A stretch of DNA of 64,000 nt from Physcia stellaris (taxonomy: Eukaryota > Ascomycota > Lecanoromycetes > Caliciales > Physciaceae). Location: contig JABSSW010000025.1 in the NCBI GenBank assembly GCA_018902385.1, positions 372,001 to 436,000 of the forward strand. Reading direction: 5' to 3'. The translations under genes were made by a program, and so were the position numbers. Under the pieces are notes generated by a model. It did no database searches. It was given only the letters and a program-made list of their open reading frames with translations, and was not told the DNA's origin. Positions 9,036 through 47,823 of this stretch are shown here, piece after piece. Within the stretch, counting starts at the first letter, position 1, and the number at the start of each line of letters is the position of its first letter.

Positions 9036-9071
9036 TTGTTGATATTTGCTCCCGGAAAACCATATAATATC

Positions 9072-9284: not shown

Positions 9285-9868
9285 TAGCGCCTTCATGTTG
9301 TCTACAGACAACGTAGAGAGTCAAATATCAGAAAAGCAGAACTTCACGCCCACCATTCAGCATCAAGAGATGTCAAGCTTGAGCCTTCGATTGTTGACGA
9401 AACCTCTGCCCTCTATCCTTCACATCCACTCTCATCCTAGTAGAGTCTTAAAGCTCATGGAAAGACTGCTAGCTGATGAGAACTGGCCTTCAAAAGGATA
9501 TCCGCTTTGGATCGGGCGCGGCGTCCACCATGTCAGAAGTCACTGGTCTTTGACACGTGCAGGGTTTTGTACTATCGTCGGTCGACGACACATTTAACAG
9601 CACGACGTGCACTCTCCTGGGATGGATCGAAGCCTTGTAGGTCTAACCTCGCTGGATTGGAAATGTTGCAGGACGTAAGGTATTCTGAGGTAAGGTAGTA
9701 AAGGGCTATTAGTAGAGTAAGTGCTGAATAAGCAGTCGGCTCAATGCCGCAATGGAAGGTGCGGATACCTCGGGATGCAAGTTCCTTCGCCTGCTGAAAA
9801 TTAAATCCTCAACATGACTCTTACACATCTCAACAAAAAAATAAAAAATGTTTCGCTCTTCCAACTTC

Positions 9869-9878
9869 TATATAAATG
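9869..9878 (+). promoter_or_regulatory. TATA-like box of the caspase-like gene
   Basis: TATATAAATG lies about 70 bases before the ATG at 9945, with a CA-rich leader (CCATCAACCACTATACAGCA) between them. Position and sequence fit a TATA element; no experimental start site is known. Confidence 0.45.
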
Positions 9879-9944
9879 AATTTCGAAACCTACCTAGAGC
9901 TCATCGACGATCCTCACCCTCCATCAACCACTATACAGCACTAA

Positions 9945-11708
9945 ATGTCTCAGAGCAATCCTAACAGGACAAAGCTGCTCTTAGTGCTCGGTGTTACTCA
10001 ACACAATGACGATTGGATGATTGGAGATTTCACCGGCTTCATGGCGGCATTTAGAGAGGAATTTGCTACCATGGGAGACTTTTTCACAGCTGTCGACCTT
10101 GACACCTATGTCAAGGGAAAACATAGTAGTATCAAATTTGGGCGAGGAACTTATGAAAGAGTAGTTTATGACAAAAGCTGGGTAGACCAGGGAAAGCCTA
10201 AGCCGTATACTCTTGTTCCTTCTTCCGATCTCAAGGCCAGCACTCTAAATTGGATGGCAAGACAGGCCCAGCTTTGCGATTCAAACGATACTGTCCTTGT
10301 CATCTTGATTGGCCACGGCGATAGAAATGGTAGCGTCTTAATAGGTGACCACCTTTTATCCCCCGGCGAAGTCAGTAAGGCGCTTACTAGCTTTGATGCT
10401 GGGGTGAACATCAACGTTGTTACCAATGCATGTTATGGAGGTGTCTTGGTGAGCCACGAGAGTCTCCGCGAGTCGCAAACAAAGAGATACATTCAGGCGG
10501 CAACAACCAGTGAGGAACTGTCCGCGGCAGAATTTGATAGCTTGTCGGGCACCATGAGGTCTCCAAGCGGAGAATCTCAAAGCTCCTACTTTACCGGAGC
10601 CTTCGTCAAGTCATTAGCAAACATTTCTCTCAAAAGGCCTCCCATTAGACGCCATAGCCTCACACTTGAAGATCATTTGGAGAACCTAACCTTACAAACT
10701 TATACAAGAACCCCGCCAGGTTTTAGATCGACGCCGTCTGCTTTTTACGACTGGTCTAAGTCTATACCACTAGAACTGATTTTAAACCTCGAGTATGCCA
10801 AGATTTCAAGAAATCCTACCGACAGTTCTCGTTACGCTCGGCTGGAGTCCGATACCACTATAATGCAGGACATGCTTAGTAAATTAAGTTTGGGCTTGGT
10901 CAATGCGAACGAGGATGATACTATAGTTGACATCGACGAGGGGACATTCGGATCAACAGTTAAGAATTACCTCACTACTATTGGTCGGGCCGTGGATGTT
11001 TACGAGGTAGTGACATGTGACCGGAATATATTCGGAAAGATTGAAGATGGTTTTACGGAACCATTAATGAAAGCACAATGCTTGGTTGAAGTCACATTTC
11101 GAATTCGAGCACAATCCACGGCATTCGAGGTACTTATGATGCTCCAGGAGCACAGTTTTGTGAAAATCGACGCGCTGGCTAATCCAGCCGATCTACGACT
11201 GCATACAGTTGAGGTGTGGGACGTGATGTTGGCACTAAACACTTTCGATTTCTTCGTTGAAACAAAACCTCTGAAAGGCGCGTTGTATCCATTCTACGAA
11301 GAACCGGTGATGTGGCTTGCTACGATGATCGTACGAGGCGCGATTGTTGAAGACTTGGACATTATAACCAATTTCATCTGGTTCTCTGGTGTACTGGGTG
11401 CTTTCGATCCGGAGGCCTATCGAAGCTACTGGCCCGCAGGAAGACGGTTGAAGGTGGATCCGGAGGCATTAACGGTCATGGAAACACCACGTTGCTTCGT
11501 TGCATTCATCCTTCCGGTAGGTATGGGCAAGCATGTCGATCGTTTGTCAATTTACGAGCACGTCAACGAGGCTGTGGAACAGACCGAGTCACTTTTTCAA
11601 AACTACTTTCGCCTCACACCCGATCAATTCCGTCCAGCGAAATGGATTTCTCATTTTCATGTCCCAGCTGTGTTCACCAGCCAAGGATCAAGCAAGGTTA
11701 GTGGTTAG
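9945..11708 (+). CDS. Clan-CD (caspase/legumain-like) cysteine peptidase homologue, intronless
   Basis: One uninterrupted 587-residue frame. After a short lead (LLLVLGV), a beta strand leads to LIGHGD with H124, and a second strand leads to TNACYGG with C163. This His-Gly ... Ala-Cys dyad, spaced 39 residues, is the signature of clan-CD cysteine peptidases (caspases, metacaspases, legumain, gingipain). The p20-like part takes up about residues 8-270. The remaining 300 residues have no domain I recognise. There is no signal peptide or membrane segment, so the protein is probably cytosolic. It lacks the Q/N-rich prodomain of standard fungal type I metacaspases, so it is a separate branch, perhaps linked to regulated cell death or heterokaryon responses (inference). 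It lies 700 bases from the edge of the large repeat block. Confidence 0.75.
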   Translation: MSQSNPNRTKLLLVLGVTQHNDDWMIGDFTGFMAAFREEFATMGDFFTAVDLDTYVKGKHSSIKFGRGTYERVVYDKSWVDQGKPKPYTLVPSSDLKASTLNWMARQAQLCDSNDTVLVILIGHGDRNGSVLIGDHLLSPGEVSKALTSFDAGVNINVVTNACYGGVLVSHESLRESQTKRYIQAATTSEELSAAEFDSLSGTMRSPSGESQSSYFTGAFVKSLANISLKRPPIRRHSLTLEDHLENLTLQTYTRTPPGFRSTPSAFYDWSKSIPLELILNLEYAKISRNPTDSSRYARLESDTTIMQDMLSKLSLGLVNANEDDTIVDIDEGTFGSTVKNYLTTIGRAVDVYEVVTCDRNIFGKIEDGFTEPLMKAQCLVEVTFRIRAQSTAFEVLMMLQEHSFVKIDALANPADLRLHTVEVWDVMLALNTFDFFVETKPLKGALYPFYEEPVMWLATMIVRGAIVEDLDIITNFIWFSGVLGAFDPEAYRSYWPAGRRLKVDPEALTVMETPRCFVAFILPVGMGKHVDRLSIYEHVNEAVEQTESLFQNYFRLTPDQFRPAKWISHFHVPAVFTSQGSSKVSG

Positions 11709-12414
11709 ATATCAAGAGAATTTTGTCTTCCAAAAAGACTCAATATATGTAGGCAGTCGACTCCGTGGTCAATGATAGAAATGACTAAAAGAGAGATTCA
11801 CACATTGTCAGTAGAAGTCAGATATATCAATCCTTCGCATGCTACCCGAATCGTCTCAAGTTGTAAATTCTTGAACCTGTCTCTTGTAAAAATAAACCAT
11901 ACGTAAGGATTCCATCGCGCGCTATATGCCTCCAATCTCCTGCTGCCAATTTTCAGTTTCGACTTTGATGCTTGCCTCGATCAATGAGCCCGCTTCCCAT
12001 CTAAGAGCGGATTGGCATTCTGCTGAAACCGTTTCTCATCATTGCGGAGTCAAGTCGAGTCATTCAATGGAGGTTCGTGATCAATCTTATTGTCGCTGCG
12101 TTGAGAAGCTTGTCTGAACCTAAATGCATGAGCATGAGTTGACTTCAATGTTAAGCGCCTCCTTCGATGTCGCTCTGTATGCTCCAGTTATGGCTCTTTT
12201 GGTCTGATATTGAACAAGGTGTGGACCTCGTTGAGGGGATTGCTACTTACGAGCAGGTCTCTCGCGCACTCTCTGCTGGATTGTTGTCGCCATTGATCTG
12301 CGTAAAGCCAAGTGAGCTTCAAAGTCAAGTAAATGTTCGAAGAACTACTATAGAAACGCGTGAAATAAGCAAAAGACGTGCGAAACGCGTTTTTCATTTT
12401 CTCTTCTCATGAAC
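11709..12414. other. Transition zone to the AT-rich block
   Basis: Ordinary base composition with ApG, GpG, CpC and CpT all common, up to about 12.41 kb. No gene is recognised; the short frames are unconvincing. The switch to mutated DNA occurs within a few tens of bases around 12,415. Confidence 0.5.
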
Positions 12415-14199
12415 TTGGCGTGCCAAAAAGCGTCGAAAAACATTCGTAATTCTAATCTAAATAGAAATCTAAATCACGATCATTTTTCGAAAATTGTCTT
12501 GATGTTTCGAACATCATGTTACACACATGAATGATTTAAATCAATTATTATCACATGAATAAAAACATGCGTCATGATAATATACATGATTTTGATCAAC
12601 ATTCACATTAAATTGAAAAAACGAAACGAAATTGATATTACATATTTGCACAATTGTAATAAATTTTCATGACAATTTGAAATAATTGAATCATTTTAAA
12701 TCAAAATAAATATGTTATTGTTATTGTGATTTCGAAAATATTTTGAAATTCAAAAAGTTTTCACGTTGTTGTTGATTGTTCAATCTTAAAATATTTCAAA
12801 ATTAAATTTTTGCGTTTTCGCAAAATTTTCGATATCAACGTTCATTATTATTTGAATTTTAAAATTGTATCGTTTGAACAAAATAAACGATTTCGAATTG
12901 CAACAACGTTTGTTTTAAAATTTAAATTATCAAATATCACAATCATTGTCATTATTTTCATTTGACATTATTATTGTTTTGTTATCGCGTTGTTGTGCAA
13001 AATATATTGATAATTTACAATTATACGTTGAAACGTTGATGATTTTGCGTTCAATTATACATATAATTACGTTGAAATCGCAAAAATCAAACGTTTCGTT
13101 GAAATATGTCTTCATTGATTTTTGATAAAATCAACATTTTTTTCGCATTTTTTTATTATTTTATTTCATCATATGCATATGATAATAAAACATAATCTAT
13201 AAAAAATATTCATTAAATTCGTTTGACGCGAATGATCGATCGAAAAAAATTTTGATCAATTTTGCGTTCGTATTTTTTAAAGTCGATAAATTCAATCAAT
13301 ATTTAATTCACGTTTTCAATGCGATAAATTATCAAATTTTTTTCGTTCAATCATCAAAATTCATTTTGAATGCGAAAGTTCGTACAGTTGTTTCGCATTT
13401 TGCACATCAGTCAACAATCACATATGATTTTCATTTATTTAGTCGAAATTGTAAAACAGAAAAAGCGCAATTCAACGTTGCAAAAATAACGAAAATCGAT
13501 TCATTATCGCAATAGTTTTGTGATTTGAAAAATTATGTTACAGTCAAATTTGTGTTCGTTTCGCAATGTTTCGTTTTTGAAAATTCAATTTTCAACAATG
13601 TTTGCAATGTTTCAATACGATTTCGATCATAACTCAATGCGACAACGATGAATTTTCGATATTGTTGATTATTTGAATAATGTTCATTTTGTGCTTCAAA
13701 ACGAATTTTCGATTGTATGTTTTATTTATTGAATGCAAATGTTATTAAGATGCGAAATCGATGAAATCGCAAATCGAATGCGAAATCATTTCGCAATTTT
13801 ATCAAATTTGACTTTAATTTTAAGAATTTTCGACAAAGTTTTTTTTAAAAAAACTTTCGAATTTATTTGTTATATAATAATTATATTTTTATTATATGCA
13901 TATGCATATGCATACATTATACATATTTAAAACAATAATTTTTTTTTAATATATTTTATTTTAACGCGATTTCGTTGCATGTCGCATGTCGTATATCGCA
14001 TGAATTTTTACGATTTGTCAACGTTTTTGACAATTTTCATGTCATTTTTCATGTTAATTTGTATCGCAAAATATTTTTACAATTGTTCAACAACGACATC
14101 AATAATAAAAATGAATAATACGTTTGCAATAATTTTGTTCAAATGTGTTCAATATGACAAAACGTAAAATATATCATGAATCGTGCTTGAATAGACGTA

Positions 14200-17100
14200 T
14201 TATTGACTAGCTAAACGAAGACAATAAATCTGCAGAAACAAGTATGTACAAAATGATGAAATTGTAAACAATGTGCGAACGTCAAGTTTCAAATCACGCT
14301 AATCTCGTCAGAAAATTAAGACATAATTCGATTCAAACATATTTGTTTAATCATTTATCATATTAACTATTTATCTGTCAAATCTATCTGTCAGACATGT
14401 TCGTAACATTATTTTTTTTTTTCGCGAACGTCGTCTCGACGATTCGTTGTTGTTCGAGATTTGAAAATCTTGTTGAGAATTTTGCTGATCAAATTGTATG
14501 ATTGCAAAATTCAGAAATTTCACGATCATCATTTTTCACTTCAACGTTCGATAAGATTTGACGACAATTTTGAAAATGTTTTTGACACGATTCAACTTTT
14601 CATGCGATGTAAGTTCTGACTGTAAATAACATCGAAGAGATAATCGAATCTGAGTTGTTGAATAAAAGTCGTGAAATCAGAAATAAATGAATGAAAATCG
14701 AATTCGTGACGTCAAATGCTAATCGAAAATAGTTTCGATTAATGTCAACATGACGATTTTTTTTCGAAAACGACGACGATTCGCTGAGAGATTTGATTCG
14801 TTGACGACGATTTGAAATATTGAAATCAACGTTTTGAACGATTTTGAATTTGTTGTCGTGAAATGATTACGATGAAAGTCGTTTATCATTTCGCGAACAT
14901 TATCGAATTTTTCGTTATCGACATAATATCACGTTCGATCATGAAATCAGTTCGATCAATTGACACGATATTGAAAACGATTGTAATGATATCGAAATTT
15001 CAAAATATCGTTCACTTTTCATTCGAAATTCTCGTTGATTATGACGAAATCGAAAAATTCATTGATTTGATTTTGAAAAAAATCACGAAAATCTTTGCGA
15101 AAAAATCAGCAATGAAACACATCGTAAATTCGCATGATTTTTGACAATTCGAATCGATAAAAATTGTCTTTACGTTTTAATATTTTGTATGAATTTAATT
15201 TTTGTCATCAAATTTGTTAAATGATTTGATCGTTTTGATGTTTCGTCGATTCAAAAAAACGAAATTTTTTCGACGTATTTCACGATTTTTCGATGTTTGT
15301 TGATTTGAGTTGTTATACGTTTTTGAATTATTTTTGCATGATTTCGTACGTAATTGAAAATATTTTGCATCGTGTCGATGATATTTTCTGTTTTGACGAT
15401 CAAAAATCGCTTTTTCGTCGTAACATACGAGATAAAATTTGATGAAAAATTCATACGAAAATGAAAATTTTATTGATGAAAAATGATGATAATTTTGTTG
15501 TTGCAAATATCGCGTTGTTGTTTGCAAATTCGATCATGAACAATCAAACGTTTCAATCGTTTTGCATGTAATTGCAATATTGTCGCAATTGTTTTCGATA
15601 TTTTGATTGATTTTTTCGATTTGTTCATCGATTTCTGAATGAAAAACGATGAAAAATTTACATTTGATGTCGAGAATTCTGCAAAATGTTTGTCAAACGA
15701 ATGATATGAATTGAAATTTTCGATTTAACGTTAAAAAAAAAATAGTTCATGCGTACGAAACACGTAATTGATAAATATTTTGATCGTGATTTTCGCATTT
15801 GTATTTTCATCGTCGACGATGCAAAGCACGTAATGACGTTTTTACTAAATTTGTCGATTATCGTGCAAATGACGTTGTGATCGTGAACGTCAAACAATTC
15901 GATGATAAAATTATAAATATGTCGATTCAACGTTGCAAAAAAATGACTAGAAAAATGAATAAATCGTTTTTCGATTTTGAAAATTTTCGTACGTTGACAT
16001 TTATGACAATTGCGTACGTATCGACGAACGAATTTGCGCATGTTGAATCAATAATAATCGCGACGTATAAAATTTTTCATGCGATTAAAATTTGAATGTT
16101 TGAAATCGAAAATTCATGAATTTTTTGAAAAAATTAACGAATAAAAAAACGTCGACAAACATTCATAATCGATCATCTCGATATAAAACATCGTTTTTTT
16201 CATTGCAATTTCGTAAATTGATTTCGTTCATTGAAGTGAGATTTTGTTCGATGATTTCACGATACGTCGTGCAATCATCGTCAGCTTTATTGACAATCAA
16301 AACTCGTTCGTAAATAAATTCGTCAATTTTTATTGCGTGAATTTCGAATCGTTCGAAAATAAACAATATTTGTTTTCGATATTGATGTCGTTCATCAATT
16401 TCGTTTTTGAATCGAAAATCAAACATACGAATCAAAACATCTGTTTTGACGTTTTGAATTTCGAATTGAAATTGAATAACAATGTTGAATTTCGAAAAAG
16501 TTTTTGTTCAACGAGTTTGACGAAAAGTAAATTTTTTTGACGTCATGAAAATTTTCAATTTTTGTGATCGATGAAAATTTTGATCGATTTTCGATGTTTT
16601 CGAATTCAAACGTCAATGTTTTAAACAACGAATGATGATTAATAGTTTTTTGTCATAAATTTCGTAATTGCATTCGATTGAAATCATGTTGCGATTGTAA
16701 AAAACAACGAAATGCAACATTTTTTCGTCGTCGTATTGAAATAATATTTCTGCATTGACGTAATCAGAAAAATCGATTTTCAAAATGATTTGTTTTGTTC
16801 GATCGTAATGTCGTAATATGAAATTTTCGTCACTGTTTTTTTGAAAAATTGAAAATTTTTTCGATCTTTTCAGTTCATTCGAAATTCACAAATTTCTTGA
16901 TCATTCGAATGAGAATTCGAATTTTTTCGAAAAATCACGAATGAATCGTCTGTAAAAATTGACGAAATTCACGAAAATTTGTATTTTTTTCAAATTCGTA
17001 GAACGTTTTCAATTGACAATGATTTTTATTTTCTTCGAATTCATGCGAAGATCATCTATCGATAATATGACGTTCAAAAAGATCACTTTTTTTTTGAAGA

Positions 17101-20100
17101 ATTCGCATTTCTCAATATTCATTTGTAATTCGATTTTTTTGAATTTTTTCAATATTTTACGAACGTAAACGATGTGTTTCTTTTTGAATTTGCTGTAAAT
17201 GAGAATATCATCTAAATAGATTTGACAGAAATCGTTCAAAAAATTGAATAACAAATCGTTCATGTAATGTTGTCAATTCGCGAATTCGTTGATCAATTCG
17301 AAAAATAACATTCGATATTTGTATGATTTCATGAAAATAACGAACGTGATGAATTTTTCATTTTTTTCATTCATTCGAAATTTGTTGAAAATCGATATAA
17401 TATTCAGTTTGATCAAATATTTGCAATTTTGCATTTTGATTAAAATTTTTTCGATCAAAAAAATGAAATATCGATTGCGTTTCGTGATGTGATTAAATCG
17501 TCGATAATTCACACACAAACGTAATTGATCGTTCGATTTGATTGTAAATAAAACGAACGAAACGTATGCAATTTGATTGAATACGATAAAATCTTTTTGA
17601 AAATTATTTTCAAATATTTTTGAAGTTTTGAAATTTGAATTCGAACAAAAAATATATTTTGTTTCGAAACAATGAATTGTTATCGTTTAAAAATTCGATT
17701 TTGTGATCGTAAAATCGATGCGATAACAATTCAATTGTTTTTGAAAATCGAATATTTTTGACAAATGTTTGAAATATTTGAATATTTTTTTCATTATGCG
17801 TTCAAAAATCGACTTGATTTGTTCGTGTTTCAAATTTCTTTGATCATGACAACAATTTTCAACGATTCAAAATTTGTTCGCAAAATTTTGAACGCGAAAT
17901 CGATTTGATTGATCGTAATGAAAAAACATTACATTTTTTGTTTTTTATTTTTGAAATCGACGAATAAACAGAAAAAAATTGTTTCAATCATCGCGATATT
18001 CATTGAATCGTTTGAATTCAATTTCGATGAAAAAATTTCGAATTGTTGTTTTTTGATTTTTCAACGTTTGTTGCGTTGTTTTTCAAATTTTTTTTTGATG
18101 AATGTCGTTTTCGTAATTGTTGTGATATCAATTTTTGAATTATTTGATTCGATGATTGACGACTCGTCATCGTCATCGACGTTCGAATGAATTGAACATT
18201 CGAAACATTTCGAATCGAATACATTTGATTCATTTTCAATTGTAAAAAACAAAAATTTGATTTTGAAACGAAACAAAATGATATATCGAAATTTTATTAT
18301 CGTTATATGTTTCGAATTGTTTTTTTGCGATAATACGATATCACGACGTCAATTAAATACATTTCATCGACGATTTGATTTGAAAATTTTCAAACGTCGA
18401 ATTTGAACAATTTGACTAAATATATTGTCATGATGATTGCATTTGAACGATTTGAAAATCAATTTATCGTAAATCATGTTCAATATGATTTCATGTTTGT
18501 TCATTCACGATTTTTTTAAAATTATCGAATGATTATTCAAATCGATGATTAACAAAAAAACGATCAATTCGAAATGCAATTCTATCGTTAATTTAAAATA
18601 TATGACGTGAATTATTGAAAAAATTTGACGATCGTCGAATTCAATCAATGATTTCGATTTCAATAAAAATACGAATTTCATGTTCAACATGTTGCATACA
18701 AATTGCGCGATTTTTTATCAATGAATGCATAATCAATTGCATCAATGTTTATTAAAATTTTTAATTTATGTTTATTATCGTTGAATGATAACGTACAATT
18801 GATAATTAAAAATCGTTTGATGAAAAAATCAAACAAATCATCATCGTGAATAAAAATTTTTTTAAATATTCATCAATCGCGTTTTTGATGTGAATTGTTA
18901 ATTTTTCGAATTAAAATCATTCGATTCGACGATTAAATTCATGTACGATATTTGCATTTTGTGTCAATGACGTTTTTGATGTTTGTGAACGTTCGAACAT
19001 TTTTTTCAAACGTGATTCAATTCGTTACATGTGAAACATTTGTTCGTGACGATCAATTTGTCGATCATCGAATCACGAATTTTGATTTCAACGTTGAAAT
19101 GTAAAAATGAACTGTAAATTTCACAAAAAAAAATCGAAGAACAAATTTCGTAAAAAACATCGAAATCGAAACGACAAAAATTGATTTGAATTGAAACAAT
19201 TCAAAACGTTGTTGACGTATCGCGATTTTTTTTTTTTTCGAAAATTCGATTGTCGATTGTATATTTGTTGAAAAATGATTCGAATTTCGTCGAACGTGAT
19301 AAATTCACGTGAATATACATTCAAAATTTTTTTCAAATTTCAAAAAATTTTTTCATTAATTTTTCGATTTTGATGATTTCGTTATAATAATTGAATTGCT
19401 AAAACGAAAAAAATGAAATGAAAAAAAAATTGAAAATTTTGAATATTCATGATCAATGTTCGAAATTGATTACGCATATTGCGTTTGAAATAAAATTTTC
19501 GTAAATAATGTTCAAAAATTTCAACATCATAAATCAATTTTGAAATGATTTGAAATCAATATCACGAATCGATTGTATGTGATTATCGACATCATTTTTA
19601 GTTCAATCAATCAATAATGATTGCGATCATGTTCGTGTCGTAATGATCAACGTTGATCGTCATTTTATCGTGTATTTTTGTTTTTCAAACACGTCAAAAA
19701 TTTTATTTCATCGATAAATTTAAAAAATTTGAATGTGTTTTGAAACGTCGTTTGTTTTTTTGAAAAAATTAATTACGTTAATTTTATCGTCGTTTTTTTC
19801 ATCGTCGACGTTCAGATTTCGTGCACGATCGCGAATTTGATCGTCAAAACGTCGTGATTTTTTTTTTCAAAAAATGTAATTTTTTGTTTGATCAGAAATA
19901 AATCACGTTGTTTTTCGTATTCGCTTTTCAAAATATTCAATTTTCGACGAAATTTCATTTAGTTCGACATTCGTATTGATCAATTCGTCACGATCGACGT
20001 TGACAATATTGTACAAATTTTGATATTGAATCAAAACGTTCAAATAATTGTTTCGATCGATGCGTAATCGATCAAATTTTTTAAAAAATCGACGATTTTA

Positions 20101-20560
20101 TGATTGATTCATCATTTCAATTGATCGTTGATGACGATATTCAGAAAATGAATGATTTTTTCATTTTTTTTTCATTTTTATGAAATCGATCGTTGATACA
20201 GATCGACGACGTTTGAATTGATCAACGAAATTTTCGTCAAAAAAATTGTCGTTAATTTTATGCAACATACGATTCACGTTGACGCGTAACGTTTTGAAAC
20301 GTTGTTCATCGAAATAGAAAATTCGAAAAAAATTGTTTCGTGATGATTTCGAATCATAATTGAAAATGAAAAATTGAAAATGATAAAAAAAAAAAAAAAA
20401 TTAATCGAATCAGTTTTCGTCTTTTATCGTCGAAAATTTCGTCGTTGTTTCGTTAAAAAAGTTTTCAAATCATTTGTTTGATCAACAAAACTTTTTGTCG
20501 TTTATTTCGTCAAAAACTTGATCGATTTAAGATTTTATTTTTGAACGTTCGCGTATCTCG
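14200..20560 (-). mobile_element. Ty3/Gypsy LTR retrotransposon fossil A
   Basis: Parts in minus-strand order: a gag-like region (about 20.3-19.1 kb), a region that may hold the protease (about 18.7-18.0 kb), reverse transcriptase (about 17.5-17.0 kb, with the YLDDILIYS box and an upstream CVNYRRFNHITKRNR motif), and integrase (about 16.05-15.65 kb, with the HHCC-finger part CHKCQRTK). Gag-RT-integrase order places it in Ty3/Gypsy. The 3' LTR appears to end at 14,409 with GTTCGTAACA; the run just after it on the plus strand is pyrimidine-rich, as expected of a polypurine tract on the element strand. The right-hand LTR is not resolved. The element is thoroughly broken, with many breaks, and old. 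The 14,200-14,409 stretch is less altered than the interior. Confidence 0.8.
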
Positions 20561-20565
20561 ACGAG

Positions 20566-20637
20566 CGATAAAAAATTCAACAAATTCATATTGTCAATCG
20601 AAATCGATCGAATTCGTACGATTGAATAAATAAAATG
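20566..20637 (+). repeat. Left copy of terminal direct repeat of fossil B
   Basis: Nearly identical to 27,367-27,435 (shared core TTCAACAAATTCATATTG, ending AATAAATAAAATGT). The homology fades on both sides, which is odd for an LTR; see findings. Confidence 0.75.
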
Positions 20638-23549
20638 TAAATAAAAAACAATTGCAAAACGTAATTTGTTTTGTAACGATTAATAAATCAATATATTACA
20701 TTTCAAATTATACATTTTTGATGTCAATAATTCATTAAATTATATTATTTCTAATACGAATTTTACATTTTAATCGTTATCATATTTCAAAATGATGTCA
20801 TTCGTGTATATTTAACAAAACACAATTTTGTTGTTTCGCATACATCATGTCGAATTTTGATAATGATTTGTTTTTTGAATTTGTCGAAAATGTTGATTTA
20901 TTTTTTTGATTGATTTATTACAAACAACAAATCGAAAAAAATCACAAAAAAAAATCAAATTGCAAATTCGAAATATCGAACGTTCGAAATTTGTAATTTT
21001 TATTTCATTTGTAATTTATTTTTTTATTTTTGTTTTTGATTTTGTTTGAAAATTTTTCGTCATGAAAATTATCGAAACGATTTCGAATCAATATAAAAAA
21101 AAAAATTACAAAAAATGAAAAAAATATTGCAAACAAATGAAAAATCAATTCACGTAAAACAACGTGAATTACATGATTCAATTTTCGAATTTAATCAAAA
21201 TCGCATACGTTGATATTTATTTTAAATCAAATAACAATGCGAACAAATTTTGAAACGCAAAAATCGATTTTCATTCAAACAAACAATACATTTGAAACGA
21301 ATTCAAAATTTTTTTGAAAAACGACATCGAACGAACAATCACGTTGCAACAAAATTTTTTGAAAAAATATCGCAAACACAAACAAAATCACAATCAATCG
21401 ATTAAAAATTACAATGTCGAACGAATAAATATGTTTGTTGAATTGAAATTCGAATTCAAATTCACGAAAACAATGAAATTCAACGATTTTCGTGACGAAT
21501 TACGTTTGAAATTTCGTTGCATGCTTTTTAAAAAAAAAAATTTCACAAAAACGAAATTGCTTGAACGATTCAAACGTATGAAAAACGTTCAAATTTTGAA
21601 AAAAAAATTCAAAAATTTCAAAAAACGTAAAATTTCGTTCGATATTGACAGTTTTGAAAACGAAAACGAAAAATTCAAAATTGCGAAATTCAAAAATAAA
21701 AAAATCAAAAATATTAACAAAATCAATTCGAATCACGAATCAATCAAATCGAAAAATATTCGAATGTATCGTTGATTCGTCAACGAATTCAAAAAAATTC
21801 AAAACAAAAATAATTGTATAAATTGTGACAAATCAAATCATCAAATCGAAATTTGCACAAACAAAAAAAAACAAAATCATTTTCGTTGATCAAATTTTTG
21901 AACAATCAAAAAATTAATCGATTTGATGATTTTCGTTCAAATCGTTAAAAAAAAAAAAATTTTCGAATTTCGATTTCGATACGTCGTTTTTTTCAAACAT
22001 GAACAAAAATCATGTTAACAAAAAAAAAAAAACGACGCAAAAAATTTAAAAAATTTATAATTCGTAAATGCGTCAAAATCAAAATTAACATACAAAACGA
22101 AAACAAAATTTGAAACGAATCGAAAACAATATTCGATACAAAAACGAAAATTAATTTGATAAATCATGTTTATGCGAAAAAATTGAATTTTCGTCGTTTT
22201 GAAATTTTAAATTGTGATACAATAACAATTGACAATCATCGTTTGAAAACGTATGACGTTTATTTCGTACAATTCGAAATGTCAAACGTCAAAAAAATTA
22301 ATCGTTTTTTCGAAAAATCGTTTTTGATCGTGAATTTGAATTGAAATTTAACGTTAAACATGTTTTGAATACAATTTTCGAAAATCAAAATGAATTGAAA
22401 CGATGACAATATCAAAATTTGACGTTACAAAAACAAACATTTTATTTTTATCACAAATTGTATCGAAAACATCGAATTAAAACAATTGATCATAAACGTT
22501 ATCGATAACGAAATTGAAACGTATTTCATGTTCATATGAATGTATATTGACAAACAATTCGACATGCATGAAATGCACGTTTCAAAACGAATTCAAATAA
22601 AATTTGTTTTGATTGAAATGAAAAAACAATTCGATATCAAAATCACGCTTTTCGATATTTTGAAAACGTATGAAAAATTCGATAACGAAAATAAAATTTA
22701 CGAATTATCGAATCATGATTCAAACGATCATGTTATTGATTTAAAAAAAAACAAAAAATCGTCGCATGAATCAATTTATTTTTTATTCGAAAATGAATTT
22801 CGAATATTACGTGTTTACATCGAAAAACATTTAATTAACGATTTCATTCGATTTTCACAATTTTTTGCAAAAACGTTCATTTTGTTCGTCAAAAAAAAAA
22901 CGATAATTTACGATTATGCGTGAATTACAAAAATTTTAATGTTTTCACGATAAAAAATAAATATTTTTATCGTTAATCGATGAAAATTTAAATAAATTCA
23001 ACAAAATCGTCAAATATATCAACATCGATTTGATTGTTGTTTATCATCGATTGCGTATCAAACATGAAAACGAATGAAAAACAATTTTTCGTATTCGATA
23101 TGATCATTTCGAATATAACGTATTTTTTTTCGATTTCATTAACGTTTCGACGACGTTTCAAAATTTTATCAATCGAATTTTGACGATTCGTTTCGATATT
23201 AACGTCATAATATATTTGAACGATATAATAATTTATTCGATAAACGTCGAAATTCATGTCGACGATGTCAAATGAATTTTTGATCGTTTTAAAAAAAAAT
23301 TATATATTGTTTTTGAAAAATGCAAATGATTCGTTGACGAAATAAATTTTTTTGAATTCGTTGTTTTATTTCAAAAAAAAAAATACGAACGCAAAACAAA
23401 AAAATCGAAATTATTCAACAATGATTCAATATTTCGCAACGTTTTCGACATCATGCAATTTTTCGATATCGTTAATTTTTATCGACGATTCATTAAACAT
23501 TTCAATAAAATTGTTGAATTTTTGATCGTTATGTTAAAAAAATCGCAAA

Positions 23550-24195
23550 AATTACGAAAAAATATTCGTAAACGCAAACGAAATCAAAATCGAAATCGCA
23601 ACAAATTATCGAATATTCACATTTTTTTGATCAAAAACGTTGAAAATTTTCAAAACGTTGAAAATTTTCAAACGATTTCGCAAAACATTTATCGAAAATC
23701 AATTTTACGTCATTTTTTCGAAATGCAAAAAAAAAAAAAATTTTAATATTCGAAAATCGAAATTTTCAAAAAAAAAAAAATTAAAAAATTTTATTTTCGA
23801 AAAAAAAAAAAAAAAAAAACGAAAAAAAAAAAAAAAATTTTTTAAAATTTTTTTTTCGCGCAAAAAATGAAAATTTTCGTGAAAAAACATTTCGAAATTT
23901 TTTCGAAAAAAAAAATTTTTGCGAAAAAAAAAAAATCGAAAAAATTTTTTTCGATCAAAAAAATTTCGCAAAAAAACAAAAAATCGACGATTTCATTAAA
24001 AAAAATCGAAAAAATTAAATTTAAAAAAATCGAAATCAAAAATTACGAAAAAATATTCGTAAACGCAAACGAAATCAAAATCGAAATCGCAACAAATTTT
24101 CGAATATTCACATTTTTTGATCAATGAAACGTTGAAAATTTTCAAACGATTTCGCAAAACATTTATCGAAACATCAATTTTACGTCATTTCGATT
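23550..24195 (+). repeat. Internal duplication around an A-rich block in fossil B
   Basis: About 165 bases at 23,550-23,715 recur with few differences at 24,031-24,195. Between them, 23,720-24,030 is almost pure A/T with long A runs. It looks like a segmental duplication inside the pol region of the old element. Confidence 0.7.
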
Positions 24196-24786
24196 TCGAA
24201 CGTGTTATTCGAATCGAAATCGACGCATTCGACAATCGAAATCATTTTATGTCAACAAAACGACGAAAATCATTGACATTTTGTTGCGTATTTTTCGCGC
24301 AAAATGATTTCGATCGAATGTCAATTACGAAATTCATGACAAAAAATTGTTGATTATTGTGATTTCGTTCAAACAATGAAAACATTATTTCGAAAACGCA
24401 AAAAAACAAATTTTGTTTTTATTGATTATCGCAATTTGAAACAATTTATGATCACAATTAAATTGTCGTCACGTCAAATTCGATGAATTCAAAAATTGAA
24501 TCGATATAATTTTTTAATCGATTATCGTTTCGATAACAAAAATTTTGTTGACGAATTTTCAAAACGATTTGATCACATGATGATTATTGAAAAAAACGTC
24601 GAAAACAATCGTTAAATTTTGAAACAATTGCAAAAATCATTGATCGCAAATTCGAAACGTTTCGAAAAAATGCGAATAAATGCGATCAAAATCATGAATG
24701 AATGCGATGCATGTCATGAAACGATTCATGAATGCGATATAATAACATGAAACGTCGATCGCATTTAAATGATTCAACAATCGAAT

Positions 24787-24900
24787 CAATCAACGTTGTT
24801 TCGAAAACATTTGATTCAAAAAATTCAAAACGAAATCGAATTTCAATCAACGTTGTTTCGAAAACATTCGATTCAAAAAATTCAAAAAATTCGAAACATT
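24787..24900 (+). repeat. Two-copy tandem repeat of about 58 bases
   Basis: The motif ATCAACGTTGTTTCGAAAAC followed by an ATTCAAAA run occurs twice in a row within fossil B. Confidence 0.7.
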
Positions 24901-27366
24901 CGATTGAACAAAAATCAAACGTGACATTCATAAAATGAAAAATTTTTGTGTTAAAATCAACGATTGTATTTGAATGCGCAATGCATAAAATTCGAATACA
25001 AATTGTTTTACGAAAAAAAACGACATATAACGACGAATCAACATTTTCATTGTTGAATTTCGTTCGTGATTTGATCGTTAAAAATCAATTCGTTTTTGAA
25101 ATATGTCGAAAATTAATTATTTCGAAAACAAAAACAAATAATTGACAACACAAAAATGAATTTTTGTATTACGACGACGTCGTTTACATTTCAAAAAATT
25201 TGCGTGAAAACGTTATTCGTGTCAATCACGATAATTCGTTCGTTGATCATTTCGACATCGAACGAACGTTAAAATTGATACGTCGAAAATATTATTGATC
25301 GAATCAAAATTTTATCGAAATTTTTGAAATGCGACAACAAATCAAAAAACATTGTGAAACATGCGTCGTTTGCAAACGAAACAAAATTGCACGACACAAA
25401 TCATACGACGAATTTTTTTTTTTTTCGATTTTTGAATTTAAATGAATTGATTTTTTCATGAATTTCGTGACAAAATTTTTTTCAAATAAAACGTGAAATG
25501 AAACGATTTACGATTCGATTTTAATGATTGTGAATCGTTTAACGAAAATGATTCATTACATATCAATAATTAAAACGATTTTCGCAAAAAATTTGATCGA
25601 AATTTTATTTCGCGAAATCATTCGATTTCACGATTTTTTTTCGTCAATCGTTATCGACAAAAATTTCATTTTCACATTCAAATACAACGATGCGCTGTGT
25701 TACGTTTTGAAAATCAAACATAAATTGTCAATCGTTTTTCATTTTCAAATCGATGAACAAATCGAGCGAATGAACAACGTCATGAAACAATTTTTTCGCG
25801 TTTTCGTCAATTTCGAACAAAATGATTGAATAAAATTGTTGTTCATGATCGAGTTCGTTTACAACAACAGCAAACACGCATTCACAAACATTTTTTCGTT
25901 CGAAATTATGTTTGAATATTCGTTTCGCATGTTTTTCGAAAAAACATGAAACAAAAAAATTAAATTCAAATTCGCAAAAAAACACGTTGAACATTTAATT
26001 GAATTATTTCGAATATTGAAAAACAATTTATTCGTGACACAACAACAACAAACGATGTACAAAAACGAACGCACGAAATCAATGTCATACAACGTCGAAA
26101 ATTACGTGAATTTGAACGATAAAAACATCAAAATTAAACGAAACAAAAAATTGAAATGAAAATTTTTGAATCATTTCAAATTTTAAAAATTATAAAAAAT
26201 CAAATTTATCGTTTAAATTTATTCAAACGTTGACGCATTCACGACGTTTTTCACGTTTTTTTTTTTAAAAAAATTCAATTTAAAAAAAAAAAAAAAAACA
26301 TACGTCACATTTTTTTGAATTTTCGTATCAAATTGAAAATATTGAATTCGACGAAAACATGAAAATGAAAATCACGAAAAAATTTTATGAAATCGAAATC
26401 ATTAAAAACAACAAAATTTTCAAAACAAATGAAATTTCAAACAAATTTTACAACGAATTCGATTTTTATTATTTGATAAAATGAAAAAATTATGAAAACG
26501 CGATTTGAAAATTTGCATCGTTTGTCAAACATTTTCGAAAAATTTTGCGACAATTTCACAACGAAAATTCAAAAAAATTTGATGTCAATAAAAAAACAAA
26601 TCATCGAAAATCACGAAAAAAATGAATTGAAATATTTATTGCATGTTAACACATTTTCGTTTTCAAAAATTTTGTGTGTTATTTATTGTTTAAAATTTAC
26701 GACGCATGAAAAATTGAATTGTGTCAAAAACATTTTCAAAAATTGTTGTTCGATTTGATCGAACGATAAATCGTTGAATAAAAAATGTGAAATGAAATAA
26801 AAAAAAAATTTCGAAAATTTGAATATCAATGCGATCGCGATTAATGAACGTTTATCGCGTTACACATTTTTTCATGATATCGATGTTGATATTCGAAATA
26901 AAAAAATGAAAAAATGAAAAAATGTTCGAATTCAAAATTTTTGTCAACAAATCAATTGTCAATCATCATATCGAAAATTGTGAATGATACGAAATCAAAC
27001 ATTCGATCATGAAAACAACAAACAATTGATTTATCAAATTATGTTTTTTTTGAATCATTCAAAAAAATGTTTTTCAAATTTTTAACGCAAATTGATTATT
27101 GAATTCGAACAAAAATATTTCGAAATGCGAAAATCACGATCATAATGATTTTTCAAATCAATGCAAAATCAAAACAAACAAAATACGTCAAAATTTTTGT
27201 TAACATGTTGATTTCAAAAAATTTCGATGTTTAAAAAAAAACGTATGTAAAAAATAAAAATTCAAAATTTTCGAAAATGCGATTCGCATTTCGTCAAACA
27301 ATTCGATTATCGAAATTCGAATGATTTCGAAAAAAATCAATTTCAATCATTTTACAATTCGATCAA

Positions 27367-27435
27367 CGATAAATTCAACAAATTCATATTGTCAATCGAA
27401 ATCGATCGAATTCGTACGATTGAATAAATAAAATG
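27367..27435 (+). repeat. Right copy of terminal direct repeat of fossil B
   Basis: Partner of 20,566-20,637, about 6.8 kb away in the same orientation. Confidence 0.75.
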
Positions 27436-30369
27436 TGAATAACTCAAATATGTATGTTGTTAAATTTTTTTTTTTTATGTAACAATCGCTAATCAATACA
27501 ATTTTTTAATTCAAAAACAAATGCAAATGAATCAACGATATCATTATCAAAATATTATATGTTTTGTTTTTTAACGACGAACGCAAAATTTTGAATCACA
27601 TGTCAATTACGATCAAATATTTTCAATTTATAACATCAAATACATTGTGATTCGTGTGTACAATGATTCACATGATTTTTAAAAAATGAAAACATAAATT
27701 TTATAATCAAATATCGTTTCAAAAAACAATATTGTTCGATAAAATATATATTTTCATAAATATCGTTTGTTTATGTTCGAATAAAAATTTATAAAAAATT
27801 GAAACGCGTTTGAAAAAAAACGTTTGATAAACGCAAAAAATTGATCGACGAAATGTTTTTCGCGAAATTCGATCGACATCGAAAAATCAAATCAAAAAAT
27901 AAATTTCGATTTCAACGAAAAAAAATATATGACAATTCGAACGATAATGAAAATTTCGATTTGATGAATTTCGCAATATTTTCGATAAAACAATGATATT
28001 GCATGTTATGTCGCATTTGATTAATATTAACGAAATGTTCATCGTTAATGTTTCGACGATTTATATTGTTTTTCGCAAATTCAAAAAAAAAAAATTGATG
28101 AATCGCGACGCGATTTTTCGCGATCAAACGACAAAAACGTAAAAAATGTTCGAACAAAAAATGACGATTTTCATGAAAAAAATGATCAAATGACGTTTGA
28201 CGACAATTTATTCGACGAATTGACGTCAATGAATGATTTTATCAACGTTAACAACGATCGTCGAATCGAAAACGAAACAATCGAAAAAAACGCGACGATA
28301 AAAACATAATTAAAAATTGAATAAATTTGTTTGATTTGAACAAAATTTGCGAACAAAATTATCGAAAAAATTTTTGTTGCAATTTACAAAAATAAATATC
28401 ATTCGATTTTTTGTTGCAATAATTTGATTTGTTCACGAATGCAAAAATCAAATCAATTATTTCGACACGTTGAACAGTTGTCGCTGCACGAAATTAATGA
28501 TTGTCAATTGATCAAAAAAATCGACGAATAATTATATCGTTAAAAAATCAACGCAAAATCGAAAATAAATATAATCGACACATTTCACTCGATATGCAAT
28601 GCATTTATTTTAAACGAAAAAAATTGAAATCATGTCGTTAATGTTGAGAAATCAAAATTCGATTGATTCGCGCATCGTTGATGTCATGTTCGATGTCAAT
28701 ACAACGTCGACAACGAAAAATTGAAAAAATAATTCAAATCAATGAAATTTGCAATATACAATATAGTTAACAAATATCACGCAAAATGCGACGATGTCAA
28801 ACAAAAAAAAATCAACGCAAAATGAATGCATTGAATTTTGTTGATTGAATAACGCGATTCGAAAATTTTGAATACAAATTGTTTTTGAATACAATTTGAA
28901 CTCAATTCAAAAAAAAATGCAATGTTGAAAAAAATGAAATGATTTGATAATACGACGAAAATAATAAACAATTTGACGACGATTAAAATTACAAAACATT
29001 TTTTAAATCGACGACGAGAATTCGAAAATTGATGAATTTGATTCACGACGATTCATTTAAAAATTTTCAAAAATTCGAATAATCGACAAAATGTTCAAAC
29101 GTTTAACAATGAACAAAATATGTTTTAATCATGTTTCAATGATCATCGTATTTCAATTTGTTTGAAAAATTTTCAACAACGAAAAAAAAAACAATTCGAC
29201 ATTATTTACAATGACATCATGCATGACATCATGCATAAAAAATTTTCGAAATTATCGTGATTTTATAATATGATAAAAATCATTGAAAATGTAAAATTGA
29301 CAATATTCGAAAAAATTTGATATTATGAAAACACGAATGAAATTTTTCATACATAATATTCACAATGTTGTCAAATATTTTTGCGAACGTTGTAATGCAT
29401 AAATTTTCAAATAAAAAACAATACAAAAAAAACAAAAATTCGAAAATGTCATTAATTAACATGAAACGATATGTTTTTCAAAAATTTTGAATTTTACAAG
29501 TTATTGAAAATCAAAAAAGCATTGACAATAAAAAATATGATTGTCAATTTGAACATTTTTGTCAAATTGAATAATTATTTCATCAATTTGAAAACGTTTA
29601 ACATTTTTGTAAACAATAACATACGTTTGATTCATCAAATTCGTTTATAAAATCTTAACGTATTTAAGAAATCGATCGTCAATTTGCGAATGATGTATGA
29701 AAAAACGAAAAACGTGAAAAAAAAAAAAAAAATTATTATTCGTGATATTTTGCTAGATATTTTGCAATTTTTCGATATTCGTATCAGACGAAATACAACG
29801 TTGCATCGTATTTTGTTTGATTTTTGCAAATTTTTGCGTATTGATGAATTTATTTGATCAAATGTTGATCGTATTTTCGAATTTAACAAATAAAACGTTA
29901 TTCGTTTTTCGATGATTTTTTTTTTGACGATTATTTCATTTTGACGTTTTTTGTTTCGAAAATCGATTCATTTCGCAAAAAAATTTCGATATTCATTGCG
30001 ATCATTGACGATGTCGTTTGTGCATTAATTTCATTACGCAATTTTTTCGAACGTTTTTTTGTTTCAACGTTTTTTTTTCTATTTCAAATCGATCAATCAA
30101 AACTTTTCAATGCAAATTACGTTATTATCGTATTACAAAACGCGATTACGAATTTGACATTCGAAAATCATTATTTAAATCATTTTTTTCGTCGAGACGT
30201 TGCAATTGAAATTCGCAATGCGAACGTTTTTGACGATTTAATCAAATTTTTAAAAAATGAAAATTCGAAACGTTTTTGTTGTATATCGAAAATAACAAAA
30301 ATATATTTTTATGTATCGCGACATCATCAAAACGATTGAATTGTTTTTTTTTTTTTCGTTTTTTTGACG
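27436..30369. other. AT-rich remainder without recognisable domain
   Basis: Same CpY-depleted composition. Frames of 80-130 codons are present on both strands (for example + 29,941..30,339) and have the look of mutated coding DNA, but I could not match them to gag, pol or a transposase. Confidence 0.5.
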
Positions 30370-30374
30370 ACGAC

Positions 30375-30561
30375 TGTCAGGGGCCGTGCCTGGCTAGGAG
30401 GTAAACAGGTAGCAAAACGAGGATATTTGATCTAGGGAGCAAATATCTACATGGAGGCCGAATGCCAGAAGTAGGAGTGTGCGCCAAGCCACACTAGTCC
30501 TCATATGGACTCCCGCTGATAAGATAAGCTCCCAACCGAGATCTCAGGCATGCTCGTAACA
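30375..30561 (-). repeat. LTR (3' LTR of TRIM-like element)
   Basis: 187 bases, TGTCAGGGGCC ... CTCGTAACA on the plus strand. It matches 32264..32450 at all but 3 sites, and all three differences are C:G to T:A in a CpC/GpG context. Confidence 0.95.
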
Positions 30562-32263
30562 CTATCCCCCCGTCTCCTCCAAGCTTCGTCCCGAAGCGAA
30601 TAAACCACTCCTCCTACCGATCGGCATTGCGAAGGGATCCATTGGCTGTGGCCCAGGTACCAGCCTGGCCATGGCAGGAGCAGGAGGGCCCAAGCAGTTG
30701 CGGTAGGCGTGGAGAGGTAAATGCGAAAGCAGGAGAAGGAGGGCGGAGGCAGAGGATATAAGGCCACGAAAATGAGGACCTTGTTGAGGACCTTGACCTC
30801 GATCGATGCGGGAGATACCTGCAGATTAGTATGGTGGATCGGCCGATTTCTCGAGCAGAAGCAGCAGGGCGGTATCGGTTCCGCAGGCGTATGCTGTTTC
30901 AAACTCCTCGGATTTGGGCTTTTCGAGTCCTTATTAATCGGCGCGTCCTGATTGGCTGCAGGTTCTGGGCAGGGCAGGGTGTTGGCGCATCGACGGCTGG
31001 CAAAGGGCTGCGGAGAAGGCGGGCTGATTTGGCCGTGCAGCAGACCCGCATTGACTGTTGTTCTCCACCTCTTCATGCCATTTGCTCTCGTATCGCTGCT
31101 GTGGTGTAATAGGTCCACCTCCCATTGGTGTTGACTGCGGAGGTGTAAAGAATCGAACGCTTTTGGTGGCCATTGTAGCGGACCCACTGGGTGCCATTGT
31201 AGCAGGCAGAGTCGCTGGGACTGGCGGAGCGGAGCGGAGCGAGGATTTCTCGGCCATGCTGGGGGTGTAACAGGCCTAGAAACCGAAAATTTTGTTTGGG
31301 GTTTTGGGTGGTTGTTTGTTGGTTTGGTGGTTTGGTGTGTGTGTGTGGCTTCTATCCCCCTCTTTATCAAGCGGTGTCCCAACGCTTCAAGGAGGTGAGT
31401 ATTGTAGAGGCCATTTGGTGGGTGGGCTGACTGGCTCAAGGAGGCATGGAGGTCGTCTATTGGCTGGATGTCGACTGGTCTCGACGAACAAGGAGGTCGA
31501 CTATTGACTGGGTGCCGAAGGCTCGAAGGAGGAGGTCGGCTATTGAGTCGTTTCGTCGACATGAAGGTGCTCTATGTAAATTCTTCATTCAACTCACGGA
31601 GGTTCGTCCTGTGGCTCCGTGGCCCCCTCAGAGGACTTGGGTTGAACGCCAAGTGGACAGCATCCACCGCCCCCAAAGGGGGGACTTCTCCATTAACGCA
31701 GGTTCACGGCCATTCTCGCTGGCCCACGATGCGCATAGTGGAAGTGAGGTGCAACCACCGCCTCCAAAGGGGGACTTTCGTTTCGTGGAGGTTCGTCCTG
31801 TTGCTCCACTCACGGAGGTTCGTCCTGTGGCTCCGTGGCCCCCCGCAAGAGGACTTTCGTTTCGTAGACATGAAGGTGCTCTATGTAAATTCTTCATCCA
31901 ACTCACAAAGACGTCGTGCTTCGTGGCCTCCCTCTGAGAGGACTTCACACTCTGGCGGTCTTATTTTGCTTACTCGCGTACCCCGACGAGCAACCTGTTT
32001 CGAAGCAGGACGTTTGGCCGGGTGTCAGTTAGTCTCGCAGAACCCAGGGCGAGAGATCTTGCTGTGCTAGAGGCAGTGAACCACCGTCACTGCGGGTTGA
32101 TAGGTAATTGCGCTGGAGGCGTCACCGTCGCAAATTGACTGAGATTTCGTGCTGGAGGTGTGCGACCGTCACGAATTGAATGGCCGCGTTTCTTTCTACT
32201 CGCTGGCCGTTTGGTTGCGAGTGTGGAGTTTACATCGCCCGTCACGATGGAGATCAAATATAA

Positions 32264-32450
32264 TGTCAGGGGCCGTGCCTGGCTAGAAGGTAAACAGGTA
32301 GCAAAACGAGGATATTTGATCTAGAGAGCAAATATCTACATGGAGGCCGAATGCCAGAAGTAGGAGTGTGCGCCAAGCCACACTAGTCCTCATATGGACT
32401 CCCGCTGATAAGATAAGCTCCCAACCGAGATCCCAGGCATGCTCGTAACA
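32264..32450 (-). repeat. LTR (5' LTR of TRIM-like element)
   Basis: Partner of 30375..30561. It ends at the second ACGAC target duplication. Confidence 0.95.
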
Positions 32451-32455
32451 ACGAC

Positions 32456-33036
32456 GTCGTTTTTCGACGTGTCTTGAAATTGTGAAAAATAATTAAATTT
32501 TGAAAATTGTTTTGTTGAATCATTTTGTTCAACGAAATCGATTTTGCAAAATCATTTTGTTTTGCAAAATCATTGTTTGCAAATCGATTATGTTCAAAAC
32601 ATCAAAAATTTTGTACATAACAATGAAAAAAGTACGCAACATTAATTCGTTCAAATTAAACATGAATGTTAATGCAAAAATAACGAAATAAAAAAAATTT
32701 GAAAAAATCGATTTTTTAATTAAATAAAAAATCATTGTTTTTTTTATTTCATTTTTCATTTTTCGTTTTTTTTTTGTTCGTTCATTCATTTTTTGTTTTT
32801 GATTTTTTTCGACGTTTTCATTTTTTTTGAAAATTTTTTTTTCGTTTCAAAATTCAATCGCAAAAACAAAAAAAATAATTAAATTTTGAAAATTGCTTTG
32901 TTGAATCATTTTGTTCAACGAAATCGATTTTGCAAAATCATTTTGTTTTGCAAAATCATTGTTTGCAAGCCGATCATGTCCAAAACATCAAGGATTTTGT
33001 ACATAGCAATGAAGGAAGTACGCAGCATTAGCTCGA
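32456..33036 (+). repeat. Right remnant of AT-rich block with a direct repeat of about 165 bases
   Basis: Copy A (about 32,486-32,654) and copy B (about 32,876-33,032) align over about 165 bases. Copy A is fully mutated. Copy B is mutated on its left part but keeps normal ApG, GpG, CpC and CpT from about 32,968 onward. The spacer 32,655-32,875 is A/T-rich with long T runs. This is the continuation of the old block interrupted by the TRIM-like insertion. Confidence 0.85.
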
Positions 33037-47474: not shown

Positions 47475-47823
47475 TAAGTTATAATCCAGAGATATGTTTT
47501 GATCTCGATTAAAACGATGTTTTATAATCGAAAATGTTTTACAAATCAAAATGCTTAATAGATCAATTGATAAAATGATTAAGCAATTTTTAATCAATAA
47601 AATCGTTTATCGTTCGCAATTTTGAAACGATTTCATTTGCAAAACAATTGATATGCATTTCTTGATGTTTTGATCGTTTCGTATTTATTTATTGATCATG
47701 ATTGACGATTTCAAAATGCGCGCGTTTGAAAAATTAATTTGTATAAAAATTGTTTTACAAATTGTTTTTATAAAGACGAAAATCATGATTTTGTTCAATT
47801 TCAATTATTTTTTTCAGCATATT

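Follow-up and report, generated by a model that had tools for sequence, protein, structure and literature searches.

C-to-T mutation favouring CpC and CpT in repeated DNA of Physcia stellaris

Described C-to-T systems in fungal repeats

In Neurospora crassa, repeat-induced point mutation (RIP), which has a RID-dependent and a DIM-2-dependent branch, changes C to T in repeated DNA according to the 3' base, and it is led by CpA (PMC12543289). A comparable signature is present in the lichen-forming ascomycete Physcia stellaris. It was analysed in a stretch of 64,000 nucleotides (assembly GCA_018902385.1, contig JABSSW010000025.1, positions 372,001 to 436,000 of the forward strand; "the window" below, numbered from its first letter), where a long AT-rich block has lost its CpC and nearly all of its CpT. 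As in Neurospora, C-to-T changes in the repeats depend on the 3' base, and the genome carries RID-family and apparently DIM-2-like genes, but the targets differ, with CpC ahead of CpT and CpA spared. P. stellaris probably has a RIP-type defence that prefers a cytosine followed by a pyrimidine (CpY), in which CpC is hit about two to three times as readily as CpT in most mutated copies and CpA and CpG are hardly touched.

What is ascribed here to a cited paper refers to the available portions of its text. RIPCAL (2008) found CpA dominant, but some families had high CpT, which in one Neurospora family exceeded CpA (PMC2621366). Amselem (2015) described CpA, CpT and CpG signatures, and "CpC" is absent from the available text (PMC4352252). 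More recently, Badet and Croll (2025) concluded from 1,239 genomes that a preference for CpA is common to RIP-like defences; the main text, as available, makes no mention of Physcia (PMC12543289). In the RIP-capable controls of PMC7882544 the CpT to TpT change is dominant, and CpA and CpT are both RIP targets in PMC10998396. CpT is thus a major target in Magnaporthe oryzae, Botrytis cinerea, Sclerotinia and Anisogramma anomala, as it is in P. stellaris (PMC4352252, PMC10998396). In those fungi, however, CpA joins CpT and CpC goes unlisted in the accessible text, whereas in P. stellaris CpC comes first and CpA is near background. Context-specific C-to-T hypermutation has also been described in the basidiomycetes Microbotryum and Rhizoctonia AG8 (PMC2621366, PMC4014442), but the target named there is CpG, which in the Physcia block is preserved best of all contexts. 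A table for AG8 does show CpC changes to be the most closely spaced (mean 214 bp), though its authors name a CpG bias (PMC4014442).

Among lichen fungi, RIPped repeat compartments have been reported in Cladonia rangiformis and Endocarpon pusillum, and RID and DIM-2 homologues in Cladonia (PMC12542154). Endocarpon repeats differ from those of P. stellaris in giving classical RIP scores (indices 1.47 and 0.70; PMC3897900). In Cladonia repeats GC peaks near 16% (PMC12542154), against 23-30% in the Physcia block; the lower value suggests that the mutation context in Cladonia may be wider. The available text of PMC12542154 and PMC3897900 contains neither a CpC signature nor a dinucleotide analysis, and that of PMC9907504 contains no CpC signature. 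The P. stellaris genome paper, based on ascospore-derived cultures and a 46.57 Mb hybrid assembly, does not use the term "repeat-induced" in the main text as available (PMC7513301).

The original prediction held that no case with a CpC and CpT context had been published. This does not hold for CpT, for which the precedents above exist. For a CpC-first, CpA-sparing RIP it stands so far, as no report was found in the accessible portions of the open-access literature searched. A Coccidioides review uses "CpC dinucleotides" once and is a possible precedent of unconfirmed content (PMC9409882). We judge CpC > CpT >> CpA, CpG to be a new variant of RIP, CpT-rich RIP being already known.

The mutated blocks and their target order

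Between 12415 and 30369 there are 2292 cytosines, followed by A in 1108 cases, G in 1099, T in 84 and C in one. The opposite strand mirrors this, with 92 AG and one GG. Observed-to-expected ratios here are 3.75 for CpG, 0.10 for CpT and 0.38 for TpA. From 12471 to 30374, CpC and GpG are absent, although base composition predicts 584 of them, and CpT/ApG is at about 10% of expectation; CpA and CpG are retained. These counts bear out the predicted loss of CpC and CpT with retention of CpA and CpG. The GC content of the block is 23-30%. The left flank, 1-12414, is ordinary (CA 805, CC 716, CG 637, CT 890).

Three other causes were considered and ruled out. An AT-biased host composition does not agree with the normal flanks. 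Deamination at CpG, of the type of methylation induced premeiotically (MIP-like, Masc2-type), is contradicted by the CpG ratio and by C-to-T fractions of just 0.022-0.082 at CpG among repeat copies. An effect of transcription on one strand would not leave both strands equally depleted across the block.

Standard RIP indices miss the block, as had been foreseen. TpA/ApT is 0.39 and (CpA+TpG)/(ApC+GpT) is 1.42, outside cut-offs of >0.89 (or >= 0.89) and <1.03 (or <= 1.03), respectively (PMC3897900). The block is scored as unRIPped because its TpA is low rather than high. A simple index, (CpC+GpG)/(TpC+GpA), separates block (0) from flank (0.77).

In 100-bp bins, saturation starts between 12401 and 12500. 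On the right, the saturated part stops at 30374, where a younger long terminal repeat (LTR) element, itself unmutated, has inserted; mutated DNA picks up again at 32451 and continues to about 32965. The real extent of the block is therefore about 12.47-32.97 kb, split by the young element. The far edge can be read within a 160-bp direct repeat: past about 32965 the right copy retains C or G where the left has T or A, in CpC and CpT contexts and one CpA. Mutation ends about 200 bases short of an open frame encoding a CDP-alcohol phosphatidyltransferase domain (from 33176). A second block of like composition lies at about 47.5-53.2 kb and is patchy beyond 51.5 kb. At the left edge, the piece 12415-12875 has a single other match in the genome, at 71%, so that mutation there has either hit low-copy DNA or spread from the repeats. 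The blocks and elements of the window are listed here, with strand where one applies.

12471 to 30374: saturated block without CpC/GpG and with little CpT/ApG left, CpA and CpG retained (dinucleotide counts, bins)
15661 to 17272, minus strand: open pieces with retroelement pol remains, Integrase_H2C2, RT_RNaseH_2 and RVT_1 (Pfam scan)
21000 to 23722, plus strand: family 1, 40 copies scored of 291 candidates, 20 rows aligned (genome search, alignment)
29693 to 30374, plus strand: family B, 19 of 19 rows saturated, CC+GG being 0 in 17 and 1 in two (alignment)
30370 to 30374: left copy of the 5-bp target duplication ACGAC; right copy at 32451 to 32455
30375 to 32450: younger unmutated LTR element inside the block, GC 0.55 (TG...CA ends, LTRs, target duplication)
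30375 to 30561: its left LTR, 187 bp, three differences from the right LTR
32264 to 32450: its right LTR, 187 bp (LTR comparison)
32451 to 32965: mutated block continuing past the insertion (bins, repeat edge)
32871 to 33036: right copy of the 160-bp direct repeat, holding the mutated-to-unmutated edge at about 32965; left copy at 32485 to 32650
47501 to 53200: second block of like signature, patchy from 51500 on; 47600 to 50600 is family C (bins, copy comparison)

The block consists of old retroelement DNA present in many copies. Ten open pieces were scanned, nine from the first block and one from the second, and three, which lie on the minus strand at 15.66-17.27 kb, exceeded the Pfam cut-off: Integrase_H2C2 (barely), RT_RNaseH_2 and RVT_1. 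Four were matchless and three gave weak matches below the cut-off. A scan of viral contigs with the reverse transcriptase (RT) piece of the block found no relative.

The young LTR element has 12 relatives at 70-83% identity, which range from unmutated to heavily mutated. With this element as reference, C-to-T changes amount to 1230 of 3315 sites before C (0.371) and 536 of 2839 before T (0.189), against 227 of 2792 before A (0.081) and 196 of 2461 before G (0.080). In L046, the relative most mutated at CpC, the fractions are 0.83 for CpC, 0.42 for CpT, 0.09 for CpA and 0.08 for CpG. The CpC:CpT hazard ratio runs from 1.1 to 3.3 and is at least 2 in eight of the 12 relatives. Neither the 5' base nor the base at +2 has much effect. 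Forward changes (C>T and G>A) outnumber reverse ones in 11 of the 12 relatives. Two of the 12, L038 and L039, are barely mutated. The three differences between the LTRs of the young element itself are each C>T at CpC, on either strand; because all three are CpC, that context was struck first in this element and the process is not solely ancient. The scanned long open reading frame (ORF) of the element (30504-31571, minus strand) has no Pfam match, and the element looks non-autonomous.

Two further families give the same ranking. Family 1 was aligned in 20 rows, including the window copy and taken as the best-scoring 20 of the 40 scored copies, and 86.5% of its mismatches are transitions. Where the 3' base is identical, the pairwise C-versus-T fraction is 66/66 before C, 0.858 before T, 0.067 before A and 0.022 before G; polymorphic columns number 224/224 in the T context, 161/291 in the A context and 50/262 in the G context. 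For family C, whose copies are more diverged, 13 rows (12 besides the window) give corresponding fractions of 95/103 before C, 0.782 before T, 0.110 before A and 0.082 before G. Family B, counted after exclusion of L050 and L051, which match the neighbouring segment instead, is unusable for direct counts since every row is saturated.

The order of targets is CpC > CpT >> CpA, CpG. The preference for a 3' pyrimidine stands, but not the evenness that had been assumed for it, as CpC comes first and CpT second. CpA is as spared as CpG in the LTR family, while family 1 shows a weak CpA effect above CpG. Equal depletion of CpA or CpG did not occur in any of the three families compared. The canonical feature of CpA-led RIP, with CpA as the main target and TpA raised, is absent: CpA and CpG change at the same rate in the LTR family. 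This bears on the possibility that the signature is merely the known CpT-rich RIP of Magnaporthe and Botrytis. Published CpT signatures (PMC4352252, PMC7882544, PMC2621366, PMC10998396) speak for it, but CpA accompanies CpT in two of these sources (PMC4352252, PMC10998396), while here CpA in the LTR family is level with the CpG background and CpC is on top; we consider it very improbable.

The searched genome comprises 43.97 Mb in 147 contigs, and ten 6-kb stretches at round positions were sampled from it as 60 one-kb bins. In 51 bins with GC of at least 0.40, the base after C is near-even (A/C/G/T.284/.226/.209/.281). Eight bins with GC <0.32 give pooled values of.447/.001/.490/.062 and a TpA/ApT of 0.43. 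One bin of intermediate GC resembles these eight, and all nine come from two of the ten stretches. Repeated DNA is thus hit and unique DNA apparently spared, the window blocks being multicopy, the 51 GC-normal bins free of the bias and the nine AT-rich bins affected by it. The same bias in unique host DNA would have spoken against the original prediction and did not occur in the 51 sampled GC-normal bins. The signature recurs in two of the sampled stretches and, as far as tested, is repeat-directed.

Several smaller features were observed in the window. An open frame of 587 residues without a Pfam match (9945-11708) adjoins the left side of the block. From 51501 to 53200, mutated and normal bins are mixed, with normal CC+GG in 51501-51600 and 52601-52700 among depleted ones; the patchwork looks like nested younger pieces or run ends. 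An 84-bp unit occurs as two head-to-tail copies, 100% identical, at 59052-59218. A DDE_1 transposase piece (62604-63293, minus strand) lies near bins poor in CC/GG (62501-62750 and 63001-63250), as in an element partly mutated.

Strand bias and rival sources of mutation

CpC changes are strand-biased (p<0.01) in five of the 12 LTR relatives, toward the plus strand in L044, L046 and L047 and toward the minus strand in L045 and L048. After correction for 48 tests the bias holds in four of the five, L046 being the exception. In L045, L046 and L048, CpT is biased to the same strand as CpC (in L048, 1/111 versus 37/136), and L044 and L047 reach p<0.01 at CpC alone. For CpA and CpG no copy of the 12 reaches p<0.05 (lowest 0.08), with few events and weak power. 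The strand-biased runs span about 2 kb, and clustering within copies is modest (runs test z from 0.12 to -2.66). Neurospora RIP is strand-biased within a copy, and the bias seen here is more in keeping with burst-like RIP than with slow deamination or with editing of complementary DNA (cDNA).

Some observations weigh against a CpY-preferring RIP. The 12 LTR relatives share ancestry and so are not independent, and seven of them have no strand bias at CpC (p<0.01). L047 is biased at CpC only, and in L048 CpA leans the way of CpC (2/99 versus 11/146, p 0.08). In L039, reverse transitions outnumber forward ones relative to the reference (71 versus 64). Although repeated, the young element carries few mutations, as do its closest relatives at 81-83% identity. 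In family 1, CpA changes exceed CpG changes, and just 61.9% of family C mismatches are transitions.

A DIM-2-like enzyme might instead keep silent repeats methylated (5-methylcytosine) at CpY while the fungus grows vegetatively, with slow spontaneous deamination to T and no burst. Such a gene, with an open frame of 1118 residues, is present, DIM-2 prefers CpT in Neurospora according to a review (PMC13297926), and the seven unbiased copies would be expected. A methylated duplex should suffer equally on both strands, however, which disfavours slow deamination in view of the five copies biased at CpC, L045 and L048 being biased at CpT as well. Chronic deamination is therefore unlikely, though it deserves some weight.

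If a cytosine deaminase of the APOBEC kind, acting on single strands, edited the retroelement cDNA, the copies would carry strand-biased runs of C-to-T. Such a deaminase should always mark one strand, and the occurrence of both directions (plus in three copies, minus in two) disfavours it. APOBECs prefer their targets by the 5' base, whereas here the 3' base matters. A genome search for APOBEC_N gave no match, but the control genomes were silent too, so the search is uninformative. Such editing has next to no probability in our estimate.

CpC and CpT could each have a mutator of their own, for example one of the two RID paralogues of the genome. The variable CpC:CpT hazard ratio and the copies in which bias at p<0.01 is restricted to CpC are in line with this. 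That CpC and CpT share the biased strand within L045, L046 and L048, as from one event, argues against it and makes two mutators very unlikely.

A single RIP-type process with a 3' pyrimidine preference accords with the three families, the genome sampling and the strand bias at CpC and CpT, which together support the repeat-directed C-to-T change that had been predicted. C-to-T changes are concentrated in AT-rich blocks that are multicopy in the window, and their occurrence varies with the 3' base but very little with the 5' base. The testable general features of RIP are present and the canonical CpA feature is not; in our judgement the process works like RIP with a new target order.

Coding effects, candidate enzymes and significance

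Single C-to-T steps yield stops from CAA and CAG (at CpA), CGA (at CpG) and TGG (at CpA or CpC). A process acting at CpC and CpT makes direct stops solely through TGG to TGA, because the other codons need CpA or CpG; by this codon logic, elements would be wrecked chiefly by missense. For example, saturating one frame of 587 codons in silico at CpY gives nine stops, corresponding to its nine Trp codons, and 251 changed residues, while saturation at CpA gives 26 stops and 153 changed residues. The stop-to-stop ORFs of the block that reach 40 residues, 186 in number with 11731 residues in all, contain no Gly, Pro or Trp, because CC and GG are absent. Stop triplets have a frequency of 0.0561, against 0.0870 expected from base composition. 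Mean ORF length (at least 40 residues) is 63 in the block and 72 and 73 in the flanks. The expectation of unusually long reading frames therefore holds insofar as stops are rarer than predicted, but the frames are not longer than in the flanks. Likewise, CAG was rightly predicted not to become a stop, but the ApG within it is as open to change as elsewhere.

When the RT piece was searched at the protein level, 16 proteins from other data came up (14 of them in ENA), of which 13 lack Gly, 14 lack Pro and 10 lack Trp; they may include P. stellaris, and the query itself favours such matches. They only hint at a taxonomic spread. They also bear on a base-calling or assembly artefact at methylated cytosines in a Nanopore-led assembly, which might be suspected since the published assembly is a Nanopore/Illumina hybrid (PMC7513301). 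Relatives free of Gly and Pro in other data disfavour an artefact of a single assembly, though some could be from the same species. Mutation is, moreover, graded between copies and strand-biased in some, and one family holds GC-normal and mutated copies together. An artefact is accordingly a most improbable source of the signature.

RID/Masc1 and DIM-2 homologues had been proposed as a place to look, and both kinds are present, as two RID-family genes and one DIM-2-like gene. A search of the genome for C5 DNA methylases gave four matches at three loci, two matches being exons of one gene. L026 has a frame of 1118 residues with PF00145, DUF7893 and the catalytic motif SPCQ; we read its product as DIM-2-like. 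L027 (contig C5) encodes a long RID-like protein of 932 residues, and its named relatives among the 120 matches listed are what we take to be lichen fungi. L025 (contig C6, L025 2401-4060) is a short RID-family gene, DmtA-like, of 508 residues after splicing by eye, with 72% identity to a Heterodermia protein and 38% to Aspergillus flavus DmtA. Both RID/Masc1-family genes carry the catalytic motif PPCQ. By the usual names of methyltransferase motifs, motif VI is EQT in the long RID and EET in L025. A quick protein tree of 29 rows, for which five of 32 chosen proteins were dropped as too short or unmatched, places the two RID-family proteins apart, with L025 and Heterodermia on a long branch with full support. 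With open forks and long branches, the tree gives no basis for naming one of the RID paralogues as the active one. From sequence, these three loci are candidate methyltransferases, none of them tied to the mutations.

In the proposed RIP-type mechanism, the cytosine-modifying step would favour a C with a 3' pyrimidine. Mutation would come in bursts in the sexual phase, before meiosis, triggered by homology between copies. The acting enzyme would be a RID-family C5-methyltransferase, either the long RID or the short DmtA-like paralogue, perhaps assisted by the DIM-2-like enzyme. Catalysis by RID has gone undetected in vitro (PMC13297926). More tentatively, the Physciaceae may have replaced CpA-directed RIP by a CpC-first RIP through the divergent short paralogue on contig C6. 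If this is true, it would mean a RIP enzyme with a new target dinucleotide, which silences elements almost without stops and is overlooked by TpA-based surveys.

Most described RIP is CpA-led. A system that prefers CpC over CpT and spares CpA, together with three candidate methyltransferases, makes it a testable question what fixes the target dinucleotide of RIP. Surveys that rely on TpA and CpA indices can overlook whole lineages.

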